From a virus, in the IMG/VR virus record IMGVR_UViG_3300029624_000014, positions 1-41,337 of that record: a stretch of DNA of 41,337 nucleotides. One strand, written 5' to 3'. A program made the translations under genes and the position numbers. The notes beneath the pieces were generated by a model. That model made no database searches and had not been told where the DNA came from. It saw only the letters and a program-made list of their open reading frames with translations. Below, piece after piece: positions 1 through 41,337 of the stretch. Position 1 is the stretch's first letter; each line of letters begins with the position of its first letter.

Positions 1-141
1 AACCAATCGGCGACGCGGTAGTTTTCGTTGTATTCTGAGTAATTAAATTCAATGTCGATGTTTGGTGAGAGGGTAGTTTCGTTTTCCATGTGACTGCCTC
101 CTAGTTGATTTTCCGTATAGAAACATGATAAGCGTCGGGGC
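1..141. repeat. Terminal direct repeat, left copy
   Basis: Bases 1-141 are identical to 41197-41337. The sequence therefore closes into a circle of about 41,196 bp. It carries the start of the small gene that is complete at the right end (here bases 1-89, minus strand) and the end of the next minus-strand gene. A 141-base overlap matches a standard assembly k-mer, so an assembly seam of a circularly permuted or circular genome is the simplest reading. A real short terminal repeat cannot be excluded. Confidence 0.95.
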
Positions 142-364
142 GCGACGGACATAGCGTCGCGCCGAACCCATCACCTGCGGCCCTTGGCCAGCACCTGTCA
201 AAAAACCGCACGAAATCCGCCCCATGCTTTGCGTCAAGTAAGGAATAAGCTTGCACAGCTTCATACGCCAGTCGACGCGCGAGGAGGGTAGCGGCGTCGC
301 CCCGAAGCCTGTTGTGCAGGGTTCTGCTGCGGCCGCACTTTGTGACAACCTGATAGAGAGCCAT
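101..364 (-). CDS. Hypothetical protein, 87 aa
   Basis: Not recognised. It is a basic, Arg- and Ala-rich protein with no visible membrane segment or catalytic motif; the middle (LARRLAYEAVQAYSLL) looks like an amphipathic helix. The start at 364 lies one base after the stop of the upstream gene, consistent with translational coupling, although its own ribosome binding site is weak (AAGTAAG). The stop overlaps the AGGAGG site of the next gene, which begins at 89 (41285 in the other copy). This places it in the minus-strand early operon. Confidence 0.6.
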   Translation of the reverse strand: MALYQVVTKCGRSRTLHNRLRGDAATLLARRLAYEAVQAYSLLDAKHGADFVRFFDRCWPRAAGDGFGATLCPSRPDAYHVSIRKIN

Positions 365-365
365 C

Positions 366-671
366 TTACTTGTTCCCGTCATACGAGCGGCGTCCGAACG
401 TCCGCCGCTCACATTGCTGCATGAAGGCGTATGCATCAAGCGTACCATCCGACGCCGCGCGCTGCGCGAGGCGAGCCATATGGCGGGACGGAGCCTCCTC
501 GCCGGTCCACTGCGCGCGCTCCTCGGCGAGCGTCGGCTTATAGTGCGCCACGAAGGGGCGGATGCAGCGTCCTGAGTTGAAATCGTGCATGTCTGGTCTC
601 CTGTTGCTGACTGTCTGTCTAACTGCAATTTGTGAACGAACGTTTAAGCGGCTTGCCATGTCCCGAGCCAT
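366..671 (-). CDS. Hypothetical protein, 101 aa (or 74 aa from an internal start)
   Basis: Not recognised; a hydrophilic basic protein. Two starts in the same frame each have a good ribosome binding site. ATG at 671 has GGAGG seven bases upstream, inside the end of the previous gene. ATG at 590 has CAGGAGA at good spacing. The first is chosen because it is two bases from the upstream stop, as expected for coupling. The second would drop a basic N-terminus, and both products could be made. It sits in the leftward early operon near its proposed promoter. Confidence 0.55.
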   Translation of the reverse strand: MARDMASRLNVRSQIAVRQTVSNRRPDMHDFNSGRCIRPFVAHYKPTLAEERAQWTGEEAPSRHMARLAQRAASDGTLDAYAFMQQCERRTFGRRSYDGNK

Positions 672-673
672 TG

Positions 674-1060
674 TCACGCCTCCGGGGAAAGGCGCACGCC
701 AAAGTCGACAAGGCGGTCGCGAAGGTTTTCAATAGCCCCCGATCGCATGTCGTCGAAATAGCCGCACGCCCGGAACTCGTCGGCGCTGTCGTAAGAGCAT
801 CCGCCGAGATACCCGCGGTCGCTCTCAATGCGCGTCCTAACGTGGGTGGCCTGAACACAGACGAGAGCCCACGCCCAAACGTCGCCGTCTTCCAGCCGCG
901 CGGCCGTCTCGTCTTCTAGCCATTGGTCGAAAAGGTCGTCGCCGGAGCAAGTCAGATTGCCGCGGAACGGTGTGTCGTCGGGCGTGATGGAAAAAACAAT
1001 CTCGACGTCGCCGAGGCCGTCGACGTGCACAGTTTCGCGATATTCTTCAATGTTGGGCAC
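674..1060 (-). CDS. Hypothetical acidic protein, 128 aa; first gene of the leftward operon
   Basis: Not recognised. It is acidic, with a run of Asp and Glu through the middle, as is common for early phage proteins that bind host factors; that role is only an inference. GTG at 1060 is preferred over ATG at 1090 because GGGAGA lies seven bases before it, while nothing resembling a ribosome binding site precedes 1090. It is the promoter-proximal gene of the minus-strand operon, facing the non-coding divergent region. Confidence 0.6.
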   Translation of the reverse strand: MPNIEEYRETVHVDGLGDVEIVFSITPDDTPFRGNLTCSGDDLFDQWLEDETAARLEDGDVWAWALVCVQATHVRTRIESDRGYLGGCSYDSADEFRACGYFDDMRSGAIENLRDRLVDFGVRLSPEA

Positions 1061-1065
1061 TGGTG

Positions 1066-1101
1066 GTCTCCCGTGTTCCGATGATTGCAATGTAGCAGGG
1101 C
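1066..1101 (-). promoter_or_regulatory. Candidate early promoter for the leftward operon
   Basis: On the minus strand, TTGTCT and TACATT are separated by 16 bases. Each matches the sigma-70 consensus at four of six positions. The -10 hexamer ends about 30 bases upstream of the GTG at 1060. The position fits a promoter for the early operon, but the match is modest and unverified. Confidence 0.3.
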
Positions 1102-1263
1102 AACTGTTAAAGACAAGTTAATAAGGGAGGAAATTCGTAGCATAATGTTGCAAAGTCACAAAATGGGGTGGTTTTTGTTGCGGGGTTGGCTCGTGCGAGT
1201 TGTGCAACAGGGGTGTTGCGTGGTGTGGCGGTTGATCTGGTTTGGCGGCCTCTTTGTCTATCT

Positions 1264-1315
1264 AAAATCTGATAACTAGTTACTTACATCTATTTGTTAT
1301 GAGTTATCAGATTTT
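1264..1315. repeat. Perfect 14-bp inverted repeat
   Basis: AAAATCTGATAACT at 1264-1277 pairs perfectly with AGTTATCAGATTTT at 1302-1315, with a 24-base loop. There is no uridine tract of terminator type. The AAAATCT core recurs in the two palindromes just to the right, suggesting a shared protein-binding motif. Confidence 0.8.
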
Positions 1316-1345
1316 GTGTGAACAAAGCGTGGGCGGGCGTCAAGT

Positions 1346-1379
1346 TTAGAAAATCTAATAAGGTCATTAGAAAATCTAA
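1346..1379. promoter_or_regulatory. Paired TTAGAAAATCTAA palindromes (operator-like)
   Basis: Two identical 13-bp palindromes (5-bp arms around AAA) lie at 1346-1358 and 1367-1379. Their centres are 21 bp apart, two turns of the DNA helix, so a dimeric protein would sit on the same face. This is the arrangement of repressor operators or initiator iterons. No cognate regulator was recognised in the window. Confidence 0.55.
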
Positions 1380-1386
1380 AGCTAGC

Positions 1387-1480
1387 CCATCCGCCCTGCC
1401 AACTTATCCGCCCTGCCAGCCCATCCGCCCATCCGCCTAACCAAGCAACCTTCCGTCTACGCCCTACCTAACCAAGCAAC
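1387..1480. repeat. Imperfect short direct repeats, pyrimidine-rich
   Basis: ATCCGCCCTGCCA occurs twice near the start of this stretch. CCATCCGCC-like units recur. CCTAACCAAGCAAC occurs at 1436-1449 and 1467-1480. No reading frame spans them. They may be part of an origin or a recombination product; no function can be read directly. Confidence 0.6.
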
Positions 1481-1687
1481 AACGTACACAAACCATCGAC
1501 TTCGACAAGCTCCAACGCTCTCCGTCTACGGAGCGACGGGGAGGCTTTGTCCGTGGGCTGACGGGGGGGGTATGTTCGTGAGTTGGGCTGGGGTGGTCTG
1601 TATCCCCGCCCCACAAATTTTCCGCCAAATTTTATAACCTAGTTACCACGCAACATAGCAATCAAAACTAAATCAATTTTTTTTCTC

Positions 1688-1716
1688 TTGACACGCCCAC
1701 CCGACCAAGATACCCA
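1688..1716 (+). promoter_or_regulatory. Candidate rightward promoter
   Basis: A consensus TTGACA at 1688-1693 follows a T-rich stretch and is 17 bases from TACCCA at 1711-1716, a weak -10. It lies about 30 bases before the first rightward gene candidate. The -35 match is perfect and the -10 poor, so this may need an activator or may be coincidental. Confidence 0.35.
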
Positions 1717-1747
1717 GCTTCAACGCAGCAAGTTCACGGAGCCCTTG

Positions 1748-1873
1748 ATGACGTTCCTAGAAAAACTCCAAGCAATCGCTACCGCGCTGTCCGACATCGT
1801 CACTGGGTCCGCCGCCGCGCAAACGGCTTTGACCGACCTCAACACGTTTCTCGACACCCTCGACACGCCGTAA
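1748..1873 (+). CDS. Small hypothetical protein, 41 aa
   Basis: Not recognised. ATG at 1748 has GGAG six bases upstream. The product is a short amphipathic helical peptide rich in Leu, Thr and Ala. Coding-like sequence continues in other frames after its stop as far as the next gene, so this may be the front of a longer gene broken by frameshifts (see 1874-2030). It would be the first rightward gene. Confidence 0.4.
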   Translation: MTFLEKLQAIATALSDIVTGSAAAQTALTDLNTFLDTLDTP

Positions 1874-2030
1874 AGCCGCGCAAGCGCTGAAAGCGCGGCT
1901 GGCTGACGCCTACGCGCAGCCCAAGCACCTCCCCCGCTTCCAAGCCATCGCCTCCGCTATGCGCTTGACGTCCGCCCCGCCGCCGAGTACGCAGGGCAAC
2001 AAGTTCAAGCTAAGTTCGAAAGTGCTTTGA
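1874..2030 (+). pseudogene. Open but start-less coding-like remnant
   Basis: Directly after the 41-aa frame, a shifted frame stays open to a TGA at 2028-2030, which overlaps the ATG of the next gene as TGATG. Its first part reads as a plausible helix (QALKARLADAYAQP). After about 1958 a third frame looks more protein-like (YALDVRPAAEYAGQQ) and runs into the next gene. The stretch lacks an upstream start. A perfect 8-bp hairpin (1874-1881 with 1893-1900) sits at its left edge. Decay, sequencing indels or chance are all possible. Confidence 0.3.
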
Positions 2031-2500
2031 TGACGACGATTGCGTGGGACGGAAGAACTTTAGCAGGCGACAGCCGTGTCAGCGACGACAACTGCGTCGA
2101 CGTGCTCACGGTTAAAAAAGTCTTCAAAAACAAAAACTTGTTAGCCGCTTTTTGTGGCACTGCGTACGACGGCGCGGCGATGCGGCACTGGCTGCGCACT
2201 TGCGGCAACGACGACTATGACGTGTTTTCAGGGGAAGGGTTTCCTAAAAGCGTCATGAGCGACGACTTCGAAGGATTGCTGGTGACGCCGTGCGGCAAAG
2301 CGACGTCCGTCAACGCATCGGGCGTCGTGATCGAAGTGGCGGAGCCCGGAGGCATCACCGCTATCGGGTCGGGCAAGCAGGCGGCGCTGGCGGCGATGTT
2401 GGCGGGGGCGGACGCCAAGCAGGCCGTAGCGATCGCGGCGAAGCTCGATCCTTACACAGGCGGGAAGATCACGGCGCTGCGGCTTGACGAGCGGAGTTGA
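2030..2500 (+). CDS. HslV/proteasome-like Ntn-hydrolase peptidase
   Basis: 156 aa, resembling HslV, the threonine peptidase of bacterial HslUV. After removal of Met1 the chain would begin with TTIAW, so Thr2 would be the nucleophile. The family pattern follows: AGDSR near residue 14, VKKVF near 29, then a hydrophobic strand and CGTAYDGAAM, matching HslV's AGD, VKKV and GGTADA blocks. Near the C-terminus GSGKQAALAA matches the GSGG-type helix. No HslU-type unfoldase was seen. TTG at 2027 is in frame, but ATG at 2030 exposes the Thr and is chosen. In other phages HslV-like proteins are annotated as peptidases of uncertain role; prohead processing or host protein turnover are inferences. Confidence 0.8.
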   Translation: MTTIAWDGRTLAGDSRVSDDNCVDVLTVKKVFKNKNLLAAFCGTAYDGAAMRHWLRTCGNDDYDVFSGEGFPKSVMSDDFEGLLVTPCGKATSVNASGVVIEVAEPGGITAIGSGKQAALAAMLAGADAKQAVAIAAKLDPYTGGKITALRLDERS

Positions 2501-2501
2501 G

Positions 2502-2526
2502 GCTGCTACGTCAGCGTGGTAGCAGC
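2502..2526 (+). other. Perfect 8-bp stem-loop between genes
   Basis: GCTGCTAC (2502-2509) pairs with GTAGCAGC (2519-2526) around a nine-base loop. It lies between the peptidase stop and the ribosome binding site of the next gene. No T-tract follows, so a structural or processing element is more likely than a terminator. Confidence 0.45.
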
Positions 2527-2539
2527 TACAGGAGTAAGC

Positions 2540-2695
2540 ATGGCTTACGGGAAAGGTAAACGCGCGGGCGGCATGAAGGGCGGGTCGAAAGGCTCGCAAT
2601 CTTCGTACTACAACCCGTTCGGCAAAGGCGGCAAGACTTACCAAGCGTCGTCTTCGAACCAGCCGACCGTCAAGGGCGGCAAAAAGGGCAAGTAA
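2540..2695 (+). CDS. Small basic Gly/Lys-rich protein, 51 aa
   Basis: ATG at 2540 has CAGGAGTAAGC directly upstream, a strong ribosome binding site. The product is very basic, with repeated GKGK, KGG and KGS motifs flanking a short aromatic SSYYNPFG core. Such peptides are common beside phage packaging genes and probably bind nucleic acid; the exact role is unknown. Confidence 0.65.
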   Translation: MAYGKGKRAGGMKGGSKGSQSSYYNPFGKGGKTYQASSSNQPTVKGGKKGK

Positions 2696-2712
2696 CGCAG
2701 GAGAGAGCTGAC

Positions 2713-2913
2713 GTGGCTAAGCGCGGCAAACGCACGATGTCTGAGAAAGTCCGCAACGCGACGGGCAAGATGGCCAAGACGGTTACGGGCAAGATGGAGA
2801 AAGGGTCGAAGGCTCCGGTAGTCTATCCCAAGAGCGGTACGCCGCGCGTTAAGCCAAAAGCGTCCACCAAGCGCGTAACGTACGAGCGTGTTAACCGCCC
2901 GAAGAAGCGATGA
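2713..2913 (+). CDS. Small basic protein, 66 aa
   Basis: A GTG start at 2713 follows a GCAGGAGAGAGCTGAC leader. The product is Lys/Arg-rich and contains a short internal duplication (TGKMAKTV then TGKMEKGS). No catalytic motif is visible. It overlaps the next gene by four bases. With its neighbour it forms a pair of basic proteins ahead of the terminase genes; DNA binding is inferred from charge only. Confidence 0.65.
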   Translation: MAKRGKRTMSEKVRNATGKMAKTVTGKMEKGSKAPVVYPKSGTPRVKPKASTKRVTYERVNRPKKR

Positions 2914-3113
2914 CGGCCGAGGCTGTTTCGCTTACTGAAAAGCGCCGCGGCGCAGGGCCTTCCGTTACGCAAGAGGCGGAGGCGGTGTGGGGCTGCAACA
3001 ACTGCGGCAGCACGGCCATGGAGCTTCTTTCAGACGGCTCCGTTGAGTGCGCTGCGTGCGGCGCAATGATGAGAGAACTTCGCTGCTTCCTCCCCGACGA
3101 CCCGCCAGCTTGA
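2910..3113 (+). CDS. Zinc-ribbon protein, 67 aa
   Basis: ATGA overlap with the preceding gene. Residues 29-54 hold two CxxC pairs (CNNC and CAAC) about 20 residues apart around a short beta-type sequence, the layout of a zinc ribbon. No other domain fits in the length. Zinc ribbons of this size usually bind nucleic acid or mediate protein contacts. Its place before the small terminase suggests a packaging or regulatory accessory, but this is inference. Confidence 0.65.
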   Translation: MTAEAVSLTEKRRGAGPSVTQEAEAVWGCNNCGSTAMELLSDGSVECAACGAMMRELRCFLPDDPPA

Positions 3114-3120
3114 CAATGAC

Positions 3121-3477
3121 ATGGCGCTCCGTGGACTGAAGAAAATCAAGAAGGGCCTTGATGGCCCCGTCGCTGAGGCTAAACCTTCCGCGCTCCCCGT
3201 TCCGTCTGCGAACGGGGATTTGATGCTTTCGATAGGTGGCAAGAAGTGGATGAACGACGCGGTTAAGTCCGCGTTTGAGATGATAGGCGGAGTGAAGGCT
3301 TTTTCTGTATGGGCGGCGGACAACCCGACCGACTTCTACACCAAGATGGCGTCGAAAACGATGGTCAAGGAAGTGGAGCGGGAAGAAGTGCGCGACAGCG
3401 TTGAGAGCATCATTGATGCGATTGACACGGACGGAAAAGTGATCGAAGCCGTCGACGCGGAGTTCGAGGATGTCTGA
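3121..3477 (+). CDS. Putative terminase small subunit
   Basis: 118 aa, lying immediately before and overlapping the large terminase by eight bases, the normal TerS position. The segment around residues 51-80, with IGGVKAFSVWAADNPTDFY, resembles the C-terminal pattern of many phage small terminases (LGG..aL..WA..NP.eFY). The N-terminus is basic, suited to DNA contact, and the C-terminus acidic. TerS recognises the packaging site and hands DNA to TerL. It is shorter than P22 gp3 and the identification rests on position plus this motif. Confidence 0.65.
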   Translation: MALRGLKKIKKGLDGPVAEAKPSALPVPSANGDLMLSIGGKKWMNDAVKSAFEMIGGVKAFSVWAADNPTDFYTKMASKTMVKEVEREEVRDSVESIIDAIDTDGKVIEAVDAEFEDV

Positions 3478-5095
3478 CGACGAGGCGATGCGAGCCAAGA
3501 AGATTGAGTTCGTCAAGCGCTGTCGCTCCGATTTGGAGTTTCAATGTCGCCACTGCTTCAAGATCAGGAACAAAGACGCGCAAGTCGTGCCGTTCGTTTG
3601 GAACCGCACGCAGCGGTACATCCACGAGAGGCTCGAAGCGCAGCGCTCTCGCATAGGCCGCGTGCGCGCCATTATAGTCAAAGGAAGACAGCAAGGCGTT
3701 TCTACTTACGTCGCGGCAAGGTATTATAGTCGGGCGAGTTTGTATAAGAACATTAACGTTATGATCTTGTCGCACGAGTGGCAGTCCGCTGACGCTCTGT
3801 TTGACCTTGTTGACCGCTACCACCGCCACAACCCTATTGCGCCGAGGCTCGGCCGCGACAACTCCAAAGAGCTGTCATTTGACGCTCTTGATAGTCATTA
3901 TAACGTGTTTACCGCGGGAGAGAAGGCGGCGGGGCGTTCTCGCACCACGTCGCTTTTCCACGGCTCGGAAGCCGCGATGTGGAAGAACCCGCAAGAACAC
4001 TATGCGGCGTCGGTTCAAACGGTGCCTATTCTTCCGAATACGGAAGTTATTCTTGAGAGCACGGCTAAAGGCGCGAGCGGACTTTTCTACGAGAAAGCCA
4101 TGGAGGCTTTGCGAGAGGAGGGCGAGTACGAGCTGATATTTGCTCCGTGGTTTTGGGAGGAGACCAACGTCGCTGAAGCGCCGGACGACTTCGTCATCGG
4201 CACCGAGAAAGACGATTTTGGCCAGACCGACCAAGAGTACATGGAAATGTGGGGGCTTACCCGCGACCAAATGTACTTCCGGCACGTTAAGACGAAAGAG
4301 CTGGGATCGCGCGCAATGTTTCGCCAAGAGTACCCGGCGGACATAGCCGAAGCGTTCATCGCCTCATCGGACGACCCGTACATCCCTGCTTATCGCGTTC
4401 TTAACGCCCGCCGCAACGACAAGATTGAGGCGCACGGCCCTGTTATAATCGGGGGAGACCCGGCAGGCCCCGGAGGAGACAGATTTGCCGTAGCCGCCCG
4501 CCAAGGACACAAAGTCCTGTGGGTCAAGTGGCGAAATAAGATAGGGGCTATGGAGGGCGCTCAATGGGTTCGGGAGCTGGCGCTGGAAGTGGACGCGGAG
4601 AGGGTAAATATCGACGCTGGCGGCCTTGGCCACGGCATAGTGTCCATTTTGCGGTCATGGAAAGACACGGCGCACTTAGTTCACGGCATCGACTTTGGAG
4701 GGAAAAGCGAGCACAAAATGGCGTACCCCAAAGTGCCGGGACCAAAAAACCGCCGCGCTGAGATGTGGAAGCGCATGAAAGAGTGGTTTGAGTTGGAGGA
4801 GGGTGTTTCAATCCCTGACATGCAGGAGCTTTCAACTGATATCCCTGTCACGCGCGTCAAGCCCACCACATCCAATGATCTCGTGTTGGAAAGTAAGGAC
4901 GACATGCGGAAGCGCGGGGTGCAGTCGCCAGACTTGGCCGACGCCATTGCTTTGACTTTTGCATCGCTACGCTATGTGCCAGTTGACAAGCCCAGACCTG
5001 TCAAGGCAAAACCTATATCTGAGGAGCCCACGCCGCACGCTACTTCGGGTGGTGCGGCGTTTCTTTATAACAACCCTAATGGCTGGATGGCCTGA
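3470..5095 (+). CDS. terL: Terminase large subunit
   Basis: 541 aa packaging motor. The N-terminal ATPase has a phage-type Walker A, KGRQQGVST, at residues 71-79, and a coupling-type ESTAKG motif near residue 197. The C-terminal RNase H-fold nuclease shows its acidic residues in GGDPAG (Asp330), NIDAGG (Asp382) and the late PDLADA motif. Length is close to P22 gp2 and related headful enzymes. It translocates DNA through the portal and cuts the concatemer. The gene overlaps the small subunit at its start, and its TGA shares an A with the portal ATG (TGATG), so the three would be made in concert. N-terminal cysteines (CRHCF) are notable but not diagnostic. Confidence 0.95.
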   Translation: MSDDEAMRAKKIEFVKRCRSDLEFQCRHCFKIRNKDAQVVPFVWNRTQRYIHERLEAQRSRIGRVRAIIVKGRQQGVSTYVAARYYSRASLYKNINVMILSHEWQSADALFDLVDRYHRHNPIAPRLGRDNSKELSFDALDSHYNVFTAGEKAAGRSRTTSLFHGSEAAMWKNPQEHYAASVQTVPILPNTEVILESTAKGASGLFYEKAMEALREEGEYELIFAPWFWEETNVAEAPDDFVIGTEKDDFGQTDQEYMEMWGLTRDQMYFRHVKTKELGSRAMFRQEYPADIAEAFIASSDDPYIPAYRVLNARRNDKIEAHGPVIIGGDPAGPGGDRFAVAARQGHKVLWVKWRNKIGAMEGAQWVRELALEVDAERVNIDAGGLGHGIVSILRSWKDTAHLVHGIDFGGKSEHKMAYPKVPGPKNRRAEMWKRMKEWFELEEGVSIPDMQELSTDIPVTRVKPTTSNDLVLESKDDMRKRGVQSPDLADAIALTFASLRYVPVDKPRPVKAKPISEEPTPHATSGGAAFLYNNPNGWMA

Positions 5096-7140
5096 TGCCT
5101 CTACAGAACAACGACACAAGCGACTGGAAGCGCGCACCAAAGCCGAAGGTGCCTGACGATTTCGACAGCGAAGAAGACTTTCTGTCGTATGCACGAAAGC
5201 TGTACTCGGAAGACGTCGGCGCGGACCGCGAAAATCGTGAGGAAGCGCTTGTCGACCACAAGTTTGTGGCGGGCAGACAGTGGGACGAGAACGTCTACCA
5301 GCGGCGGTTGAACCTCAAAAAACCCGCGCTGACGTTCAACCTACTGACCGCGTTCGTAGCTCAGTTAGTCGGCAATTACCGCCAATCTGAGAGCGTGCCG
5401 AAAGTCGTACCGCTGCACGACGAATACAAGGAAGCGGCGCGAGTACGTGAAGGCTTGATGCGCTCAATCATCAAGAACTCCAAAGCTGAGCGTGCGTTTG
5501 GCGCGGCTTTTGAAAACTGCGTAATAGGAGGCCTCGGAAACTTTCAGCTTGTCATGGACTACGCTGACGACGACGTGTTCGATCAAGAAATACGCGTCGA
5601 CCCCATTTACGACACGGCGGCCGTCGCTTGGGACCACAGGCACGTCGATCCAACAGGAGCGGACGCTCGCCATGTGTTTGTCACGGATCGTATGGCGCGC
5701 GCTGAGTTTGAGAAACGCTACCCTGATGCTAATCCGGCAAACTGGGAAAGCGACTACACGGATTACGCCCGCGTCTCGATTGATGGGTGGGTGGATCAGA
5801 ACAGTGTACGCATAGCGGACTTTTGGCGAGTGCGCTCACGGCGCAGACTGCTGGCGTTGACTGTCGATGGTAAAACAATTGACGTCACCGACGAGCCCGC
5901 CACGCCTGAGCTGCAAGCTATGATCCAAACGGACACGGCCGGACGCGCTATTATTCGTGAAACGGACGTTCGCTACGCAGAGCTTTACGTCATGTGCGGC
6001 GGCGCACTGCTCGAAGGCCCGTATGAGCTTCCAATTAAGCGTGTCCCAGTATTTCGAGTGCCTGCGTGGGAAATCAACACAGGGGACTATAAAACGCGTT
6101 TTGGACTTATTCGCTGGGCGAGGGACCCGCAGCGTCTTTACAACTACTGGAAGTCGGTTGAAGCTGAAAAGCTGATGCTGACGGCGAAAGCCAAGTGGAT
6201 CGGGCCGTTCGAAGCGTTTCAAGGTTATGAGGACGAGTGGAACAAAGCTCACCTAAGTGACCAGCCTATACTGCGCTACAACGGAGAAGCCGGTACAGCG
6301 CCGATACAAGTGCCTCCTGTGCAGATGGAGCCCGCCTTAATCCAAAAGGCGCAGGAAAGCGCGCAGGAAATCAAGGACATTTTGAACATCCACGAAGCTG
6401 CGCTTGGCATGACGTCGAATGAAGTGTCAGGTAAAGCCATCATGGCGAGACAGCGCGCCGGTGATCTTGGTACTGTAGTTTATCAAGACAATCTGCGCAT
6501 GGCCGTAGAGGAGTGTGGGCGTGTCATCAATGATTTGATACCGTATATCTACGATGCGCCACGCGTCATCAAGGTTTTGGGGGCTGACGCCAACATAAGC
6601 CCTGCGTATGTGCGCGTGAACTACGGAGACGAGGCGAGCGTTGATCTCACGGACGGCAAATACGATGTTACGATTACGACCGGGCCAAACTATGACACGA
6701 AGCGAGTTGAAAGCGCCGAGGTTTTGAAAACGCTAGCAAACGCAATGCCGGAGGTATTCTCGACTTCCGCCGATTTGCTGGTAAAAGCGATGGATATTCC
6801 GGACGCTGATCTAATTGCGGAACGGATACAGTATGGTATGCCGGCTGGGTATCCGGGCAAACCTGTTTCGCAACAAGAACAAGCGGCTATGCAGCAACAG
6901 CAGCAAATGCAGCAACTTGCCATTCAACTTGAAATGGAAGAAAAGCGCTTAGAGCTTTTGTTGAAACAGGCAAACATTGAAGAAAAGAGAGCTAAAGCCC
7001 GCAAGACCATCGCGGACATCGAGAACGACGACGAGAGAACGGAGGCCGAGCTGGCTCGAACGGCATCCGACATAGAGAGCCAACAAACTCGTGACGCTTT
7101 ACAAGCGATCGACGCATTTACAGGAGAGAACAATGTCTGA
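5095..7140 (+). CDS. P22-like portal protein
   Basis: 681 aa, in the portal position after TerL and of P22 gp1 size (725 aa). The N-terminal region (REEALVDHKFVAGRQWD, then LTFNLLTAFVAQLVGNYRQ) is typical of the P22-type portal family. The centre carries the wing and stem regions. From about residue 580 a Gln-rich run passes into a long charged coiled coil, corresponding to the barrel-like C-terminal extension of P22-type portals. It forms the dodecameric ring for DNA entry and exit and the platform for tail factors. It overlaps the scaffold gene by eight bases. Confidence 0.93.
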   Translation: MPLQNNDTSDWKRAPKPKVPDDFDSEEDFLSYARKLYSEDVGADRENREEALVDHKFVAGRQWDENVYQRRLNLKKPALTFNLLTAFVAQLVGNYRQSESVPKVVPLHDEYKEAARVREGLMRSIIKNSKAERAFGAAFENCVIGGLGNFQLVMDYADDDVFDQEIRVDPIYDTAAVAWDHRHVDPTGADARHVFVTDRMARAEFEKRYPDANPANWESDYTDYARVSIDGWVDQNSVRIADFWRVRSRRRLLALTVDGKTIDVTDEPATPELQAMIQTDTAGRAIIRETDVRYAELYVMCGGALLEGPYELPIKRVPVFRVPAWEINTGDYKTRFGLIRWARDPQRLYNYWKSVEAEKLMLTAKAKWIGPFEAFQGYEDEWNKAHLSDQPILRYNGEAGTAPIQVPPVQMEPALIQKAQESAQEIKDILNIHEAALGMTSNEVSGKAIMARQRAGDLGTVVYQDNLRMAVEECGRVINDLIPYIYDAPRVIKVLGADANISPAYVRVNYGDEASVDLTDGKYDVTITTGPNYDTKRVESAEVLKTLANAMPEVFSTSADLLVKAMDIPDADLIAERIQYGMPAGYPGKPVSQQEQAAMQQQQQMQQLAIQLEMEEKRLELLLKQANIEEKRAKARKTIADIENDDERTEAELARTASDIESQQTRDALQAIDAFTGENNV

Positions 7141-8152
7141 CGGTGAAAAGAAAGACCCGTTTGAGGGGTTTGTGAACGACGATGGTCTCTGGGACCCCAG
7201 CGCCGAAAGCGCTAAAAAGCCAAAAGTAAAAACGCCGGCGGACGAGGGTGCTCCTGACGAGGACGACGCCGAGGAGCCCACGGATGAGGAGCGCGTAGAA
7301 GATACTGCGGACGACGAAGAAAATACGTCCGAGGAAGATGGCGATGAAGGGGATGCGGCGGAAAGCGAAGACGACGCAGAAGAAAAACCCAAAAGCAAAA
7401 AACAGAAGAAAAAAAGCGTTGAACAGCGTATCCGCGAGCTAACATGGCAGCGTCGCGAGCAAGAGCGGGAGGCGCAAGCAGCCAAAAGCGAGTTGGACAG
7501 CGTGCGTGCTGAACTTGACACGCTCAAAAAAGAAATCAACGGGGACTTGACGAATGCCCCTGCCCAGAGTAAGTCAGGGCTAAAGAAGCCAGACCCTAAC
7601 GATCCAAAGTACCAATACGGGCAGTTCGACCCACAGTACGAAACGGATCGCGATGCGTATCTTGACAAGCTAGTCGAGGAGCGCATAAAATCGGCGACGG
7701 AACAAACTCGGCAAGCTGAGGCCGCTGCTCAAAAAGAGCAAGAATATCAGAAACGCACCGCTGACATGCAGCGCAAGGGCGTTGAAATGTTCGAAGATTT
7801 CGAACAATCACTAGCCCGCATCGAAAAAATGCCCTCTCTCGACCCGCAGGTCGCTGAGGAGCTACTAGCGTCCGAATACGCGGCACAAATCATCGACCAC
7901 GCCGCGAAGAACCCGGAAGAAATCTTCGAGTTGTCGGAGAAGTCTCAGCGGGAACAGCTTAAATATCTCGGAAAGCTAGAGGCTCGCTTCGAAACCAACG
8001 CTTCGGGCAAAAACAAGACAAAAACCAAGATCACGGGCGCAGCTCCCCCGCCTCCGCGGGCACGCGGCTCAGACAAAGCATCGGCGACCAAGAACGACGA
8101 GGATTTTGCGTCGCTCTGGGCGCGAAAAGGCGGCGACGCCAAAAGAAAATAG
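7133..8152 (+). CDS. Scaffolding protein
   Basis: 339 aa. ATG at 7133 is chosen because CAGGAGAGAAC precedes it; an in-frame upstream ATG lies deep in the portal gene. Residues 20-80 are extremely acidic (Asp/Glu with Ala, Pro and Ser), followed by a Lys block and a long coiled coil (about 100-270), then a Lys-rich C-terminus. An elongated helical protein with a charged C-terminus between portal and coat is the hallmark of P22-type scaffolds (303 aa in P22), which direct coat assembly and leave before packaging. Recognised by composition and position. Confidence 0.85.
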   Translation: MSDGEKKDPFEGFVNDDGLWDPSAESAKKPKVKTPADEGAPDEDDAEEPTDEERVEDTADDEENTSEEDGDEGDAAESEDDAEEKPKSKKQKKKSVEQRIRELTWQRREQEREAQAAKSELDSVRAELDTLKKEINGDLTNAPAQSKSGLKKPDPNDPKYQYGQFDPQYETDRDAYLDKLVEERIKSATEQTRQAEAAAQKEQEYQKRTADMQRKGVEMFEDFEQSLARIEKMPSLDPQVAEELLASEYAAQIIDHAAKNPEEIFELSEKSQREQLKYLGKLEARFETNASGKNKTKTKITGAAPPPPRARGSDKASATKNDEDFASLWARKGGDAKRK

Positions 8153-18775: not shown

Positions 18776-19021
18776 ATGGCCGTTAAGAACCGCCCGATGC
18801 GTATGACACGGGCGTATGTGGAAGGGTATGTCGAAGGCCGGACAAATCCCGCCACGCACGTTGAAGCCCCTTACGCTCGAACGCAGGAAGTAAATGACTT
18901 TGCTCGCGGATTACACCGGGGCCGGGTCTTACGAGCATTCTTCAGTCAAACTAAAACAGGCAACGTCGAGATTGATAAGGACGTGCTGGCTCTGCGCCGC
19001 GAACGAGGAGAGAAAATCTAA
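18776..19021 (+). CDS. Hypothetical protein, 81 aa
   Basis: Not recognised. CACAGGAGAGAGT precedes the ATG. A basic soluble protein beginning with repeated RMTRAYVEGYVEGRTNP, where YVEGRTNP and the later FARGLHRGR may form two short helices. Its TAA shares a base with the next ATG (TAATG), so it is coupled to the HTH-metallophosphoesterase gene and may work with it. Confidence 0.65.
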   Translation: MAVKNRPMRMTRAYVEGYVEGRTNPATHVEAPYARTQEVNDFARGLHRGRVLRAFFSQTKTGNVEIDKDVLALRRERGEKI

Positions 19022-20625
19022 TGGCCACTTCAAAAAATATCCCAGACGAGCAAGTGCTTGCAGCATGGGACAATGCTAGCGGCAACGCTGCGGAAGCGTG
19101 CAGAAAGCTGGGGATAAGTCGAGGCAGCCTCTACCCTCGGTTGAAAAAGCTCGGCATTAAGACGGACAAAACCTCGCTGCTTGGCCAGCTAGGAGGTATC
19201 AGCACTGTCAAAATGCCACGCCCAGAAGGCGACGAAGTCAAGCGCTACATCATCACCTCGGCGCAGAATAACACAAAAGTCAACGCAGTGTTCTGGGAGC
19301 GCCTGCTCGACTTAGCGTCTTTCTACGACGCGTCTGTGATGGTCTGTCCGTTTACTTACTCGCCGCAATCATCGCGGACGGAAGTCGACAGCCCATGGTA
19401 CGACCCCGAGGTGCAAGAATTTCTAGTCACTGAGCGCACGCAGCTTGCCCCCGGCCTCATCTTGTGCGCAGAGATTACGCGCACGCTTCCGACCGCAGCC
19501 CGCCCGCTCAGTGGATATGAGGCGTACACGGGCCGCGCGTCAGGCATCTTCCCCCACCCAAAGATCGCCATGGAGCCCATCCCGTCGATGAAGAACGAGG
19601 CGACAAAATTCAACTACACTACAGGATGCGTAACCCGACACAACTACTCTCGCACCAAAGCCGGTTTCAAAGGGGAGTTCCACCACGCCTACGGCGCGTT
19701 GATTGTGGAAGTGACCGCTAACGGGTGGTGGGTGAGACAACTCAACGCTGACAAACAAAACCGCATCTACGACCTCGATGTCTGCATTGACGAAGAAGGT
19801 GTCACGTACGGGGTTCCTGTCGAAGCGCTTATATTTGGGGACTTCCACGCGGCGGAAATCGACCCAGAAGTGCTGCGCGCAACGTGGGGCGATAACGCGC
19901 TTGTTGATTTTCTTCAACCTTCGCAGGCTATCTATCACGACTTTTTCGATATGCGGTCTCGTCCGTGGCAAGACGAAGCGTCGTTCCACCGACAGTTCCA
20001 TAAGCACGTACATGGGCAAGAAAGCGTTCGGGATGAACTCGAAGAAGCGCGGCGTATATTTCTGCAAAAAGTCTGGCGCGAAGGTTGCAAGCATGTTTTT
20101 GTACGAAGCAACCACGACATTAAGTTGGAGAAGTGGCTTGATACAGCAGATTATCGACGCGATCCGGTTAACGCGGAGTTTTTCCTTGAAGCGCAGCTCG
20201 AAAAGGTTAGAGCGATTGCTTCAAAAAACGACCGCTTCAACGTCTTCGAATGGTATATGCGCCGTGACGGGCTCCCCGGCGACATCATATTTCTCCAAGA
20301 AGATGAGAGCTACATCATCTGCCAAAACCGAGGAGGAGGCATCGAGTGTGGTCAGCACGGTCACTTGGGTCCGAACGGGGCCAAAGGTACCCCGCGCGGT
20401 CTTGCAAAAATGGCTCGAAAGCAGTTTATTGGAGACAAGCATAGTCCATGTATTGTTGACGGACTATACGTCGTCGGTACATGCACAGGTAGGAACGTTG
20501 CCTACACGAGAGGGCCTTCTAGCTGGTCGCCGACACATGGAGTTGCTTACGAAAATGGTAAGCGAGCACTACTGACTATGTGGAAAGGTCGTTTCTTTGC
20601 TCCGCGAGAAGGGTTAACGCCGTGA
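19021..20625 (+). CDS. HTH plus metallophosphoesterase protein (T5 A1-like architecture)
   Basis: 534 aa. Residues 1-46 hold a Fis-type helix-turn-helix (GNAAEACRKLGISRGSLYPRL). The C-terminal half shows calcineurin-type metal ligands in order: GDFH (273-276), HDFFD (306-310), SNHD (363-366, for GNHD) and QHGH (445-448). Residues 65-260 form an additional domain. Phage T5 pre-early protein A1, needed for host DNA destruction, also has a metallophosphatase fold; that analogy is inferred, not tested. Binding DNA via the HTH and cutting phosphodiesters is the simplest hypothesis. It lies between lysis genes and may be expressed late. Confidence 0.75.
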   Translation: MATSKNIPDEQVLAAWDNASGNAAEACRKLGISRGSLYPRLKKLGIKTDKTSLLGQLGGISTVKMPRPEGDEVKRYIITSAQNNTKVNAVFWERLLDLASFYDASVMVCPFTYSPQSSRTEVDSPWYDPEVQEFLVTERTQLAPGLILCAEITRTLPTAARPLSGYEAYTGRASGIFPHPKIAMEPIPSMKNEATKFNYTTGCVTRHNYSRTKAGFKGEFHHAYGALIVEVTANGWWVRQLNADKQNRIYDLDVCIDEEGVTYGVPVEALIFGDFHAAEIDPEVLRATWGDNALVDFLQPSQAIYHDFFDMRSRPWQDEASFHRQFHKHVHGQESVRDELEEARRIFLQKVWREGCKHVFVRSNHDIKLEKWLDTADYRRDPVNAEFFLEAQLEKVRAIASKNDRFNVFEWYMRRDGLPGDIIFLQEDESYIICQNRGGGIECGQHGHLGPNGAKGTPRGLAKMARKQFIGDKHSPCIVDGLYVVGTCTGRNVAYTRGPSSWSPTHGVAYENGKRALLTMWKGRFFAPREGLTP

Positions 20626-21880: not shown

Positions 21881-22381
21881 ATGACCTATCCCGGCAACCC
21901 GCACCAGCTCGGGGAAGACGGTCTCCGTCTTCTTAAAGACTTCGAAGGTCTTGTGCTCTACACCTACGACGACTTCGACCCGAAGCCGACTAAGACTTTC
22001 ATACAACAACCCGAAGACGCGGTGTGGGGCGGCACTTTGACCATCGGTCACGGCCACACAGGCCCGGACGTCGTCCCCGGATTGCGGATCAACGAGCGTA
22101 CCGCCGCCGCTTACTTGCGCGCCGACGTAGGACAAGCGGAGCTGGCGGTATATGGGGGACTGCGCGTCAAAGTGCGCCAAACGCAGTTCGACGCGCTTGT
22201 GTGTTTCACCTACAACGTAGGGGCGGCTAACTGGCGCGCGTCGACGCTCCGTCGGAAGTTGAACGACGGAGACGACTACGGAGCCGCTCAAGAGTTTGAG
22301 CGCTGGGTCTTTTCCAAAGGTAAGCGTCTCAAAGGGCTAGAGCGCCGTAGAGCGGCTGAGAAGGAGCTGTTCCTCCGGTGA
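21881..22381 (+). CDS. Endolysin, T4/P22-type lysozyme (GH24)
   Basis: 166 aa from ATG at 21881 (TGGAGGACGC upstream); an in-frame ATG at 21851 lies inside the terminator hairpin and is rejected. The GH24 pattern is clear: catalytic Glu22 in LLKDFEGL, Asp31 in TYDDF, Thr54 in TLTIGHGHTG, then FDALVCFTYNVGA and RRAAEKELF at the end. A loop of about 15 residues separates Asp31 from the TIGHGHTG strand, longer than usual. No signal peptide or SAR segment is visible, so export would rely on the holin. It cleaves peptidoglycan glycan strands. Confidence 0.92.
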   Translation: MTYPGNPHQLGEDGLRLLKDFEGLVLYTYDDFDPKPTKTFIQQPEDAVWGGTLTIGHGHTGPDVVPGLRINERTAAAYLRADVGQAELAVYGGLRVKVRQTQFDALVCFTYNVGAANWRASTLRRKLNDGDDYGAAQEFERWVFSKGKRLKGLERRRAAEKELFLR

Positions 22382-22944
22382 GTTTCTTCCTCCTCAAGCC
22401 TGAGAACGTTGTCCACATCCACATATCGAAGACAGGAGGCTCAACCCTTCGTCTCGGCGTGTGGGGGAAAGAGAACTACGAAGGGCCGGCCTTTGGTGGA
22501 ATGCCGGGGGCCTGGGCTCCGCGGTATAAGTTCGCGTTCGTTCGGCATCCTATGGAGCGTTTCTACTCCGCGTATCGCGACTTTTCACAGATACGTAACT
22601 ACCAAGGAACCGTTGAAGATTTTGCGCGGGTCACTCTGAGAGCAGCCCCAGAAGGCCCGTGGGTACGTGTTTGCAGCGGCATAAGTGACCACAACATCCA
22701 ACACCACACGGCTCCTCAGACGTGGCCAGAGCACGGCTTACAGCACGCCAACTTCATAGGCCGCTATGAGCAATACACGCGCGACGTAGTACGCTTGTTC
22801 AAGCACATTGGCAGGCCTGCGCCGGCGTCTCTACCCCGTCTTCGTGAAACGGAGCCCGCCCCGCTGCGCATGGATCGCGGTCTGTTTCGCGAACTCAAGG
22901 AGTTCTATCGCAAAGACTACAAGGAGCTGGGTTACGATGATTGA
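22378..22944 (+). CDS. Sulfotransferase-family protein
   Basis: 188 aa from GTG overlapping the endolysin stop (GTGA). Two PAPS-binding motifs are present: HISKTGGST (15-23) for the 5'-phosphosulfate loop, and FVRHPMERFYSAY (54-66) with Arg56 and Ser64 for the 3'-phosphate. This fits Sulfotransfer_2-type carbohydrate sulfotransferases, though shorter than most. It would move sulfate from PAPS to a sugar hydroxyl. Glycosyltransferases and a methyltransferase lie across the convergence point, suggesting a glycan-modification cluster. Its end overlaps the oppositely transcribed Rz1-like gene. Confidence 0.82.
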   Translation: MSFFLLKPENVVHIHISKTGGSTLRLGVWGKENYEGPAFGGMPGAWAPRYKFAFVRHPMERFYSAYRDFSQIRNYQGTVEDFARVTLRAAPEGPWVRVCSGISDHNIQHHTAPQTWPEHGLQHANFIGRYEQYTRDVVRLFKHIGRPAPASLPRLRETEPAPLRMDRGLFRELKEFYRKDYKELGYDD

Positions 22945-35627: not shown

Positions 35628-35936
35628 TCAGTGCAGCCTATCTTTCACGGCTTGCTGCGTTTGCGCAGCGCCCTCGGCCTCGACGATATTCACGGCATCT
35701 GTCAATGCCGCAGTCATTATTTTAGTGGCGTTTTCTGCGTCGGGCACGTTGCCCCGCACTAAGTTGTACGTAGTCAACATAGAACCAAGCGCCATACTGA
35801 AAATGGTAAAGGTTTCGCCTGCTTTTTCCTTGCGCTGGCAATAGTGGCGCATGCTCTTTTCAAGGTGCGCCACTATTGCCAGCGCATCTTTACTCGTTTT
35901 GTCTTTCGCGTCTTGGTTGTCAGAATTTTGGGTCAT
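35628..35936 (-). CDS. Hypothetical protein, 102 aa
   Basis: ATG at 35936 with AAGGACAGTGCT upstream is chosen over upstream in-frame codons that would lie inside the neighbouring gene. After a polar N-terminus (NSDNQDAKDKTSKD) the chain is helical with a mildly hydrophobic stretch (TFTIFSMALGSMLTTYNLV) and an Ala-rich end. Not recognised. It overlaps the preceding small gene by 17 bases. About 60 bases of sequence without a gene follow before the hairpin at 35563. Confidence 0.6.
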   Translation of the reverse strand: MTQNSDNQDAKDKTSKDALAIVAHLEKSMRHYCQRKEKAGETFTIFSMALGSMLTTYNLVRGNVPDAENATKIMTAALTDAVNIVEAEGAAQTQQAVKDRLH

Positions 35937-36802: not shown

Positions 36803-37690
36803 CTATCCTCCGTACCCTTTTATTTTGGCGGAAGCTTCGAGGAAATCAAGGATAGCGAACGTCTCGTCTCCGAGTAGCGTGCCCTGCCTCGTCTGCGCCC
36901 AGTGTTTTCGAGCTTCTTTCATCGTGAAATAGCGGCAACCTGCAATAACGCGCATTTCCCCGTCAGCACAAGGAACGTAAATAAACGGGAAGCCGTCCGA
37001 GCGTAAAATTCCGGAAACCCGCGCGTCGCCGGAAACCTGCGCGTCGCCGGAAACCTGTGCGCGGTCGGAAACCTGTGCGCGATCAAAAACCCGTGCGCGG
37101 CCGAAAACCCGTGCGCCATTGGAAACCCATGCGTCGCCGAAAACCCGTGCGTCGCCGGAAACCTGTGCGCAGTCGGAAACCCGTGCGCCGCCGGAAACCC
37201 GTGCGCCGCCGGAAACCTGTGCGTCGTCGAAAACCCATGCGTCGTCGGAAACCCATGCGCGGTCGGAAACCCATGCGCGGTCGGAAACCTGTGCGCGGCC
37301 GGAAACCTGTGCGCGGCCGGAAACCTGTGCGTCGCCGTAAACCTGTGCGTAGTCGAAAACCCGTGCGTCGTCGAAAACCCATGTGCGGTCGGAAACCCGT
37401 GCGCGGTCGGAAACCCGTGCGCGGCCGGAAACCTGCGCGTCGTCGGAAACCCGTGCGCGGTCGAAAACCTGTGCGTCGTTGGAAACCCATGCGCGGTCGG
37501 AAACCTGTGCGCCACCGAAAACCTGTGCGTCGTCGGAAACCCAAGCGTCTTCTTTCTGTGACAAACTATCTTCAGAGGCGATAAACCCGCCCAAATCGCC
37601 TTTTCTAACGCCGTATGCAGGGATGTCTTGCAGCGCGCGTATTCGCCGCAGGCCGTTTTCGTTTGTCTCGTTTGTAAATTCGTACTTCAT
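36803..37690 (-). CDS. Hexapeptide-repeat beta-helix protein with 30 tandem repeats
   Basis: 295 aa, with AACAGGAGGCTAAAG before the ATG. The N-terminus (LRRIRALQDIPAYGVRKGDLGGFI) matches a known phage/bacterial family whose members continue as DAxVxGxARV repeats. Residues 47-226 are thirty exact-length hexads of the form [D/G/N]x A[R/Q/W]V[S/F]. Val and Ala every six residues should form a left-handed beta-helix. Residues 227-295 are a conserved C-terminal domain (FPFIYVPCADGEMRVIAGCRYFTM). Function is unknown; an elongated rod for binding a partner is likely. Its coding sequence can change length without frameshift. Confidence 0.8.
   Translation of the reverse strand: MKYEFTNETNENGLRRIRALQDIPAYGVRKGDLGGFIASEDSLSQKEDAWVSDDAQVFGGAQVSDRAWVSNDAQVFDRARVSDDAQVSGRARVSDRARVSDRTWVFDDARVFDYAQVYGDAQVSGRAQVSGRAQVSDRAWVSDRAWVSDDAWVFDDAQVSGGARVSGGARVSDCAQVSGDARVFGDAWVSNGARVFGRARVFDRAQVSDRAQVSGDAQVSGDARVSGILRSDGFPFIYVPCADGEMRVIAGCRYFTMKEARKHWAQTRQGTLLGDETFAILDFLEASAKIKGYGG
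37013..37552 (-). repeat. Thirty 18-bp tandem repeats
   Basis: The 540 bp consist of 30 units of 18 bp, of the + strand form GTGCGCGGTCGGAAACCC with variation mainly at the fifth to tenth positions. Conserved GGAAACC and GTGCG blocks flank the variable bases. Because 18 is a multiple of three, several frames stay open across the array, so overlapping frames there are shadows. Such arrays readily gain or lose units by recombination or slippage. Confidence 0.95.
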
Positions 37691-41067: not shown

Positions 41068-41285
41068 TGCACGATCTCCCACGTCACGTATACGCCGTTA
41101 ATATCCGGCCCGAGATATGCGTCGCGAAGAATGCGCTCGGCCTCTTCCGGCGTCTCTGCGTCCTCCGCAGCCCAGATGGTCGGCCAATGGCCGTCAAACC
41201 AATCGGCGACGCGGTAGTTTTCGTTGTATTCTGAGTAATTAAATTCAATGTCGATGTTTGGTGAGAGGGTAGTTTCGTTTTCCAT
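41064..41285 (-). CDS. Hypothetical acidic protein, 73 aa
   Basis: ATG at 41285 follows TAGGAGGCAGTCAC. It is acidic with many aromatic residues (EFNYSEYNENYRVADWFDG) and an alpha segment (DAETPEEAERILRDAYLG). Not recognised. Its first 89 bases are repeated at the left end of the window, and the whole gene is intact only across the circle junction. Confidence 0.65.
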   Translation of the reverse strand: MENETTLSPNIDIEFNYSEYNENYRVADWFDGHWPTIWAAEDAETPEEAERILRDAYLGPDINGVYVTWEIVQ

Positions 41286-41337
41286 GTGACTGCCTCCTAG
41301 TTGATTTTCCGTATAGAAACATGATAAGCGTCGGGGC
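41197..41337. repeat. Terminal direct repeat, right copy
   Basis: Identical to bases 1-141; see the left copy. It joins the operon ending here to that at 1060-101, so the leftward genes continue without a break through the junction. Confidence 0.95.

Follow-up and report, generated by a model that had tools for sequence, protein, structure and literature searches.

Phased palindromes, an inverted repeat and a CtrA-type box in the divergent gap of a phage with P22-like head proteins

The stretch of viral DNA analysed here (the window, 41,337 nt) has identical first and last 141 bases (1-141 = 41197-41337). This exact terminal repeat is probably the overlap of a circular assembly and not a biological end, which leaves a circle of 41,196 bp. 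The head and packaging proteins (terminase, portal, scaffold and major head protein) match P22-like families, and replication proteins (helicase, DNA polymerase and primase) are encoded leftward at about 25.7-34.8 kb. The replication genes, read leftward, and the packaging genes, read rightward, part at a gap which, by the gene list used, is the longest non-coding stretch of the genome (Table 1). The first-pass annotation had called it the only long one, which needs correction as stretches of 385 and 281 bp come next in length. No credible open reading frame with a ribosome site is found within the gap. A DNA similarity search with positions 1-8000 against named phages returned no match, nor did an Rfam search, and a tRNA gene search found none. 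Elsewhere the genome contains a long array of 18-bp repeats (36922-37637) within the gene of a repetitive protein (36803-37690), a perfect 21-bp inverted repeat with a 14-nt centre (35831-35886), a homologue of HslV-family peptidases (2027-2500) and a sulfotransferase-family protein (22378-22944). The 6-bp palindromes CAGCTG, CTCGAG, CTGCAG and GGCGCC are absent from the window, although 9 to 19 occurrences of each would be expected.

Table 1. Features of the divergent gap, with strand and the evidence by which each was located
Feature	Position	Strand	Evidence
Non-coding gap / control region, 688 bp	1061..1747	.	gene list, flanks from ORFs
Predicted -10 CTACAT of leftward operon promoter, 11 bp from the TTAA-N7-TTAA box	1090..1095	-	read from sequence
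TTAA-N7-TTAA box (CtrA consensus), reads TTAACTTGTCTTTAA on the minus strand	1107..1121	-	pattern scan
Inverted repeat, 26-nt arms 1252-1277 / 1302-1327, 24-nt centre	1252..1327	.	repeat search, shuffles, fold
Palindrome copy 1, TTAGAAAATCTAA	1346..1358	+	exact match
Second predicted leftward promoter, -10 at 1357-1352 inside copy 1		-	consensus scans
Palindrome copy 2, TTAGAAAATCTAA, 21 bp from copy 1	1367..1379	+	exact match
Predicted leftward promoter, -35 TTGGCA (1402-1397), -10 TAGATT (1378-1373) in palindrome copy 2	1373..1402	-	consensus scans
G-rich box GGGGGGGGTATGTTCGTGAGTTGGGCTGGGGTGG, recurring in relatives	1563..1600	+	comparison of gaps
AT-rich stretch, low duplex stability	1614..1690	.	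stability scan
Predicted rightward promoter, -35 TTGACA (1688-1693), weak -10 near 1709-1716	1688..1716	+	scan and relatives

The most conspicuous element is a 13-bp sequence, TTAGAAAATCTAA, which occurs twice, as had been claimed from first reading, with centres at 1352 and 1373 and no further exact copy in the record. It is an imperfect palindrome in which AAA is flanked by 5-bp arms, and the 34-mer that spans both copies (1346-1379) reads as four alternating half-sites TTAGA, TCTAA, TTAGA and TCTAA. When the gap was shuffled 10,000 times with its dinucleotides preserved, no shuffle contained a 13-bp palindrome repeated at a distance of up to about 50 bp. When up to three mismatches are allowed, matches to TTAGAAAATCTAA do not exceed chance level, and a text search with the motif strings returned nothing relevant. 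Most likely, the palindrome pair represents binding sites for a gene-control protein. Among the proteins scanned (a subset of the open reading frames) there is no candidate repressor or integrase gene, and the sole helix-turn-helix match is of the Fis type, at the N terminus of the DNA transfer protein encoded at 19021-20625. The latter protein matches a phage DNA transfer protein family (phrog_1745), and AGAGAAAATCTAA, which is two mismatches off the palindrome, overlaps the start codon of its gene.

Beside the palindromes lies the inverted repeat of the first-pass annotation, with exact 14-bp core arms AAAATCTGATAACT (1264-1277) and AGTTATCAGATTTT (1302-1315). We found that it extends to imperfect 26-nt arms that are 81% complementary. 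The AAAATCT core said to recur in it is indeed present in both arms and in both palindromes. None of 100 dinucleotide shuffles of the gap reached the inverted-repeat score, and the segment 1245-1385 folds as single-stranded DNA with a z-score of -4.35. Both the palindromes and the inverted repeat are thus non-random elements of the gap.

Nine equivalent gaps were compared, i.e. that of the window and those of L003, L004, L013, L023, L024, L036, L041 and L098. Searches with terminase and portal retrieved distant relatives only, and the closest one in searches with terminase, major head protein and portal, L006 (55-63% protein identity), stops short of the gap. The first leftward gene as query for close relatives retrieved nothing. 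The pair of TTAGAAAATCTAA is found in none of the relatives' gaps, and neither exact nor relaxed searches of viral contigs and of five records turned up the paired palindrome. Recurrence in relatives had been proposed as a check on the motif; it is absent at the equivalent place, and relatives with about 45-55% terminase identity are too distant to decide the matter. A resemblance of the inverted-repeat arms (GTTATCAGATTTT..GACAAAG) to GATAACAGTTTTATAGACAAA in L003 and L004 did not rise above shuffles and was discarded. What does recur are long inverted repeats of differing sequence, which in five of the nine gaps exceed all 126 control segments taken from the same loci. Very long AT-rich inverted repeats were observed in L023 (572-687) and L098 (3740-3797), with scores of 75 and 66 compared with at most 42 in the controls (n = 126). 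This recurrence despite differing sequences, together with the fold z-score given above, would suit a function of the inverted repeat and the palindrome pair through structure, be it as cruciforms or as hairpins in single-stranded DNA or in the transcript, for which the sequence itself would matter little. However, the presence of two exact 13-bp copies, helically phased, suggests that sequence is recognised. AT-rich stems lacking T-tracts also do not resemble terminators, and none is predicted there, so that we consider a purely structural role unlikely.

Several putative promoters can be assigned to the gap. On the minus strand the order is TTAACTTGTCTTTAA (1121-1107), 11 bp, CTACAT (1095-1090) and then the GTG at 1060 of the first leftward gene. 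This means that the TTAA-N7-TTAA box, which resembles the binding sequence of CtrA, a cell-cycle regulator of the probable host bacteria, occupies the -35 position ahead of this gene, and the promoter itself is probable. An overlapping -10 TACATT with -35 TTGTCT ranks 17 of the minus strand in a sigma-70 scan. Promoters that CtrA activates usually carry its site at -35 (PMC11264516). The genome contains two perfect TTAA-N7-TTAA sites, one of them in the gap, and for the window's gap alone 12 of 400 shuffles also hold one; the case for CtrA rests on the occurrence of such sites in five of the nine gaps, those of the window, L003, L004, L023 and L098, compared with 0.33 expected from shuffles. 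N7 is also the commonest among 21 TTAA spacings counted in the nine gaps. In L003 (TTAACTTGTTGTTAA) and L004 (TTAACTTGTTATTAA) the box is followed after 11 bp by GATAAC, on the plus strand and ahead of a small open reading frame, so the distance between box and -10 is equal (11 bp) in all three genomes. The predicted CtrA-type promoter is the better supported new detail of the region. Measured from this box, the palindrome pair is situated about 225-270 bp upstream. An attempt to read the 34-bp site itself as a degenerate CtrA site failed, its nearest reading being CTAA-N8-TTAG with the wrong spacing. Each palindrome carries a predicted leftward promoter with -10 TAGATT, and these two rank 9 and 15 of the minus strand in the sigma-70 scan. 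The predicted rightward promoter scores poorly, with ranks of 239 and 366 in the same scan.

On the opposite side of the gap a G-rich box was detected by comparison. It consists of GGGGG with GGTTCG or TGTTCG and is followed by A/T tracts and, in most gaps, by a TTGAC-type -35, which is found in L003, L004, L013, L024 and L036 too. The strict pattern occurs in six of the nine gaps compared with 0.04 expected, figures that are optimistic, as are the other gap statistics, since the gaps were picked and the pattern was written while the same loci were viewed. In the relatives the box with GTTCG lies on the same strand upstream of terminase (L003 1885, L004 5988, L013 1307, L023 1102, L024 5895, L036 7320, L041 5498). 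Over all viral contigs GGGGGGNGGTTCGNGG gives 114 matches, by a rough estimate no more than chance, and therefore the box has weight only through its position. In local alignments of the window's gap with those of the relatives it is the G-box region (L003, L041) and a 14-mer common with L013 that stand out, whereas the palindromes do not. This recurrence upstream of the terminase genes could be taken to mark a packaging (cos or pac) region, in which DNA would be cut at the G-rich box, the A/T tracts would be sites for terminase and the palindromes would be incidental. Yet the circular assembly of the window runs across the box, and in the contigs L003, L004, L024, L036 and L041 the box is internal and no ends are seen there. 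As this explanation also leaves the palindromes unaddressed, we give it very little credence.

The AT-rich DNA pointed out in the first-pass annotation was confirmed, and the three least stable 50-bp windows of the whole genome all start within the gap (at 1258, 1340 and 1628), the last of them in this stretch. Easily melted DNA is what a phage replication origin would offer; the palindromes and the inverted repeat would then be bound by an initiator, and the AT-rich DNA beside them would melt. The cumulative skews agree with this proposal of the earlier annotation insofar as the AT-skew minimum is at 1320 and the GC-skew minimum at 1984, with maxima at about 24-26 kb. However, the genes change direction at these two places as well, and skew therefore cannot separate replication from transcription. 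Furthermore, the gap shows no DnaA box, IHF consensus or iteron array, its direct repeats are two-copy or C-rich and do not form the initiator repeats of a theta-type origin, and any promoter gap is expected to be AT-rich. An initiator of another kind might, however, recognise different sites. Thus, the proximity of the skew minima stands while their meaning is confounded, and an origin at this place appears possible, if doubtful.

Information about the host comes from the methylation site of CcrM. GANTC occurs once in 41,196 bases compared with about 155 expected from base composition, whereas other sites of the type xyNy'x' occur 44 to 625 times each. The depletion is shared by L003, L004, L013, L024 and L103 and absent in L006, L015, L097 and L098. 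Only two portal relatives were found in bacterial genomes, both distant and both in alphaproteobacterial records. Because of the GANTC depletion together with these portal relatives the evidence points to an alphaproteobacterial host with CcrM. It is in this group that control of phage promoters by CtrA has been shown (PMC9437464). A restriction enzyme of the same site specificity would also account for the depletion.

Taken together, we favour the view that the region is a divergent promoter/operator of the phage, in which the 34-bp pair is a tandem operator and CtrA acts on the leftward promoter, and we assign to it a probability of about 0.55. Two regulator dimers would bind to the pair on one face of the helix, as 21 bp correspond to two turns, and would cover the -10 elements of the predicted leftward promoters, whereby leftward transcription would be repressed or timed. 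The inverted repeat may provide a further binding site, either for this regulator or for a different one, because its arms share AAAATCT with the palindromes. Host CtrA would act on the leftward promoter at 1107-1121. As to the operator function suggested in the first-pass annotation, position, symmetry, 21-bp phasing and the overlap with predicted leftward -10 elements speak for a candidate operator. The promoter/operator reading is weakened because no relative has the pair and no repressor gene was found among the proteins scanned, and because the promoters are consensus matches only, the gap has a single CtrA box where the phages already described have several, and the host is itself deduced.

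Tandem phage operators of the lambda OR/OL type are bound by pairs of repressor dimers. The window resembles them in that palindromic sites, in phase with the helix, overlie promoters in a region that separates divergent operons; with the dyad sites 21 bp apart and overlapping a promoter it conforms in this respect to a tandem phage operator, the promoters here being predicted only. In contrast with lambda, its half-sites are TTAGA, and neither a repressor nor an integrase gene is present among the proteins scanned.

A further parallel is offered by alphaproteobacterial phages with CtrA-site gaps between divergent blocks, for several of which binding and regulation have been described (Mascolo et al. 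2022, PMC9437464). They include vB_BsubS-Delta, vB_StuS_MMDA13 and the phiCbK group (PMC9437464). With its large intergenic gap of 688 bp between divergently transcribed blocks the region, as far as sequence comparison goes, fits this already described kind of phage control region (PMC9437464). Nevertheless there are differences: the gap of vB_BsubS-Delta contains 12 CtrA sites, that of the window a single perfect box, and the window additionally has the palindrome pair and the inverted repeat. Moreover, it is known from its sequence, with a host that we infer. The near-absence of GANTC is shared with pelagiphages, for which such depletion has been described (PMC9516812), but those belong to other phage groups, whereas the window phage has P22-like head and packaging proteins.

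A broader proposal would see in the gap a fast-evolving replication-control module common to these phages, through which phage replication would be gated by the cell cycle of the host. Transcription from a promoter region, which in several of the phages contains a CtrA site, would proceed into the conserved G-rich box; there an RNA-DNA hybrid might form, next to AT-rich DNA that melts easily, and the inverted repeats and palindromes would be the lineage-specific switch. We regard this proposal as very unlikely.

If the promoter/operator reading is true, CtrA-type promoters and a near-complete loss of CcrM sites would be features of an additional phage lineage, with P22-like heads. Phage sensing of the host cell cycle would then extend to this lineage, and the palindrome pair would offer a handle on the regulator that balances replication versus structural genes.
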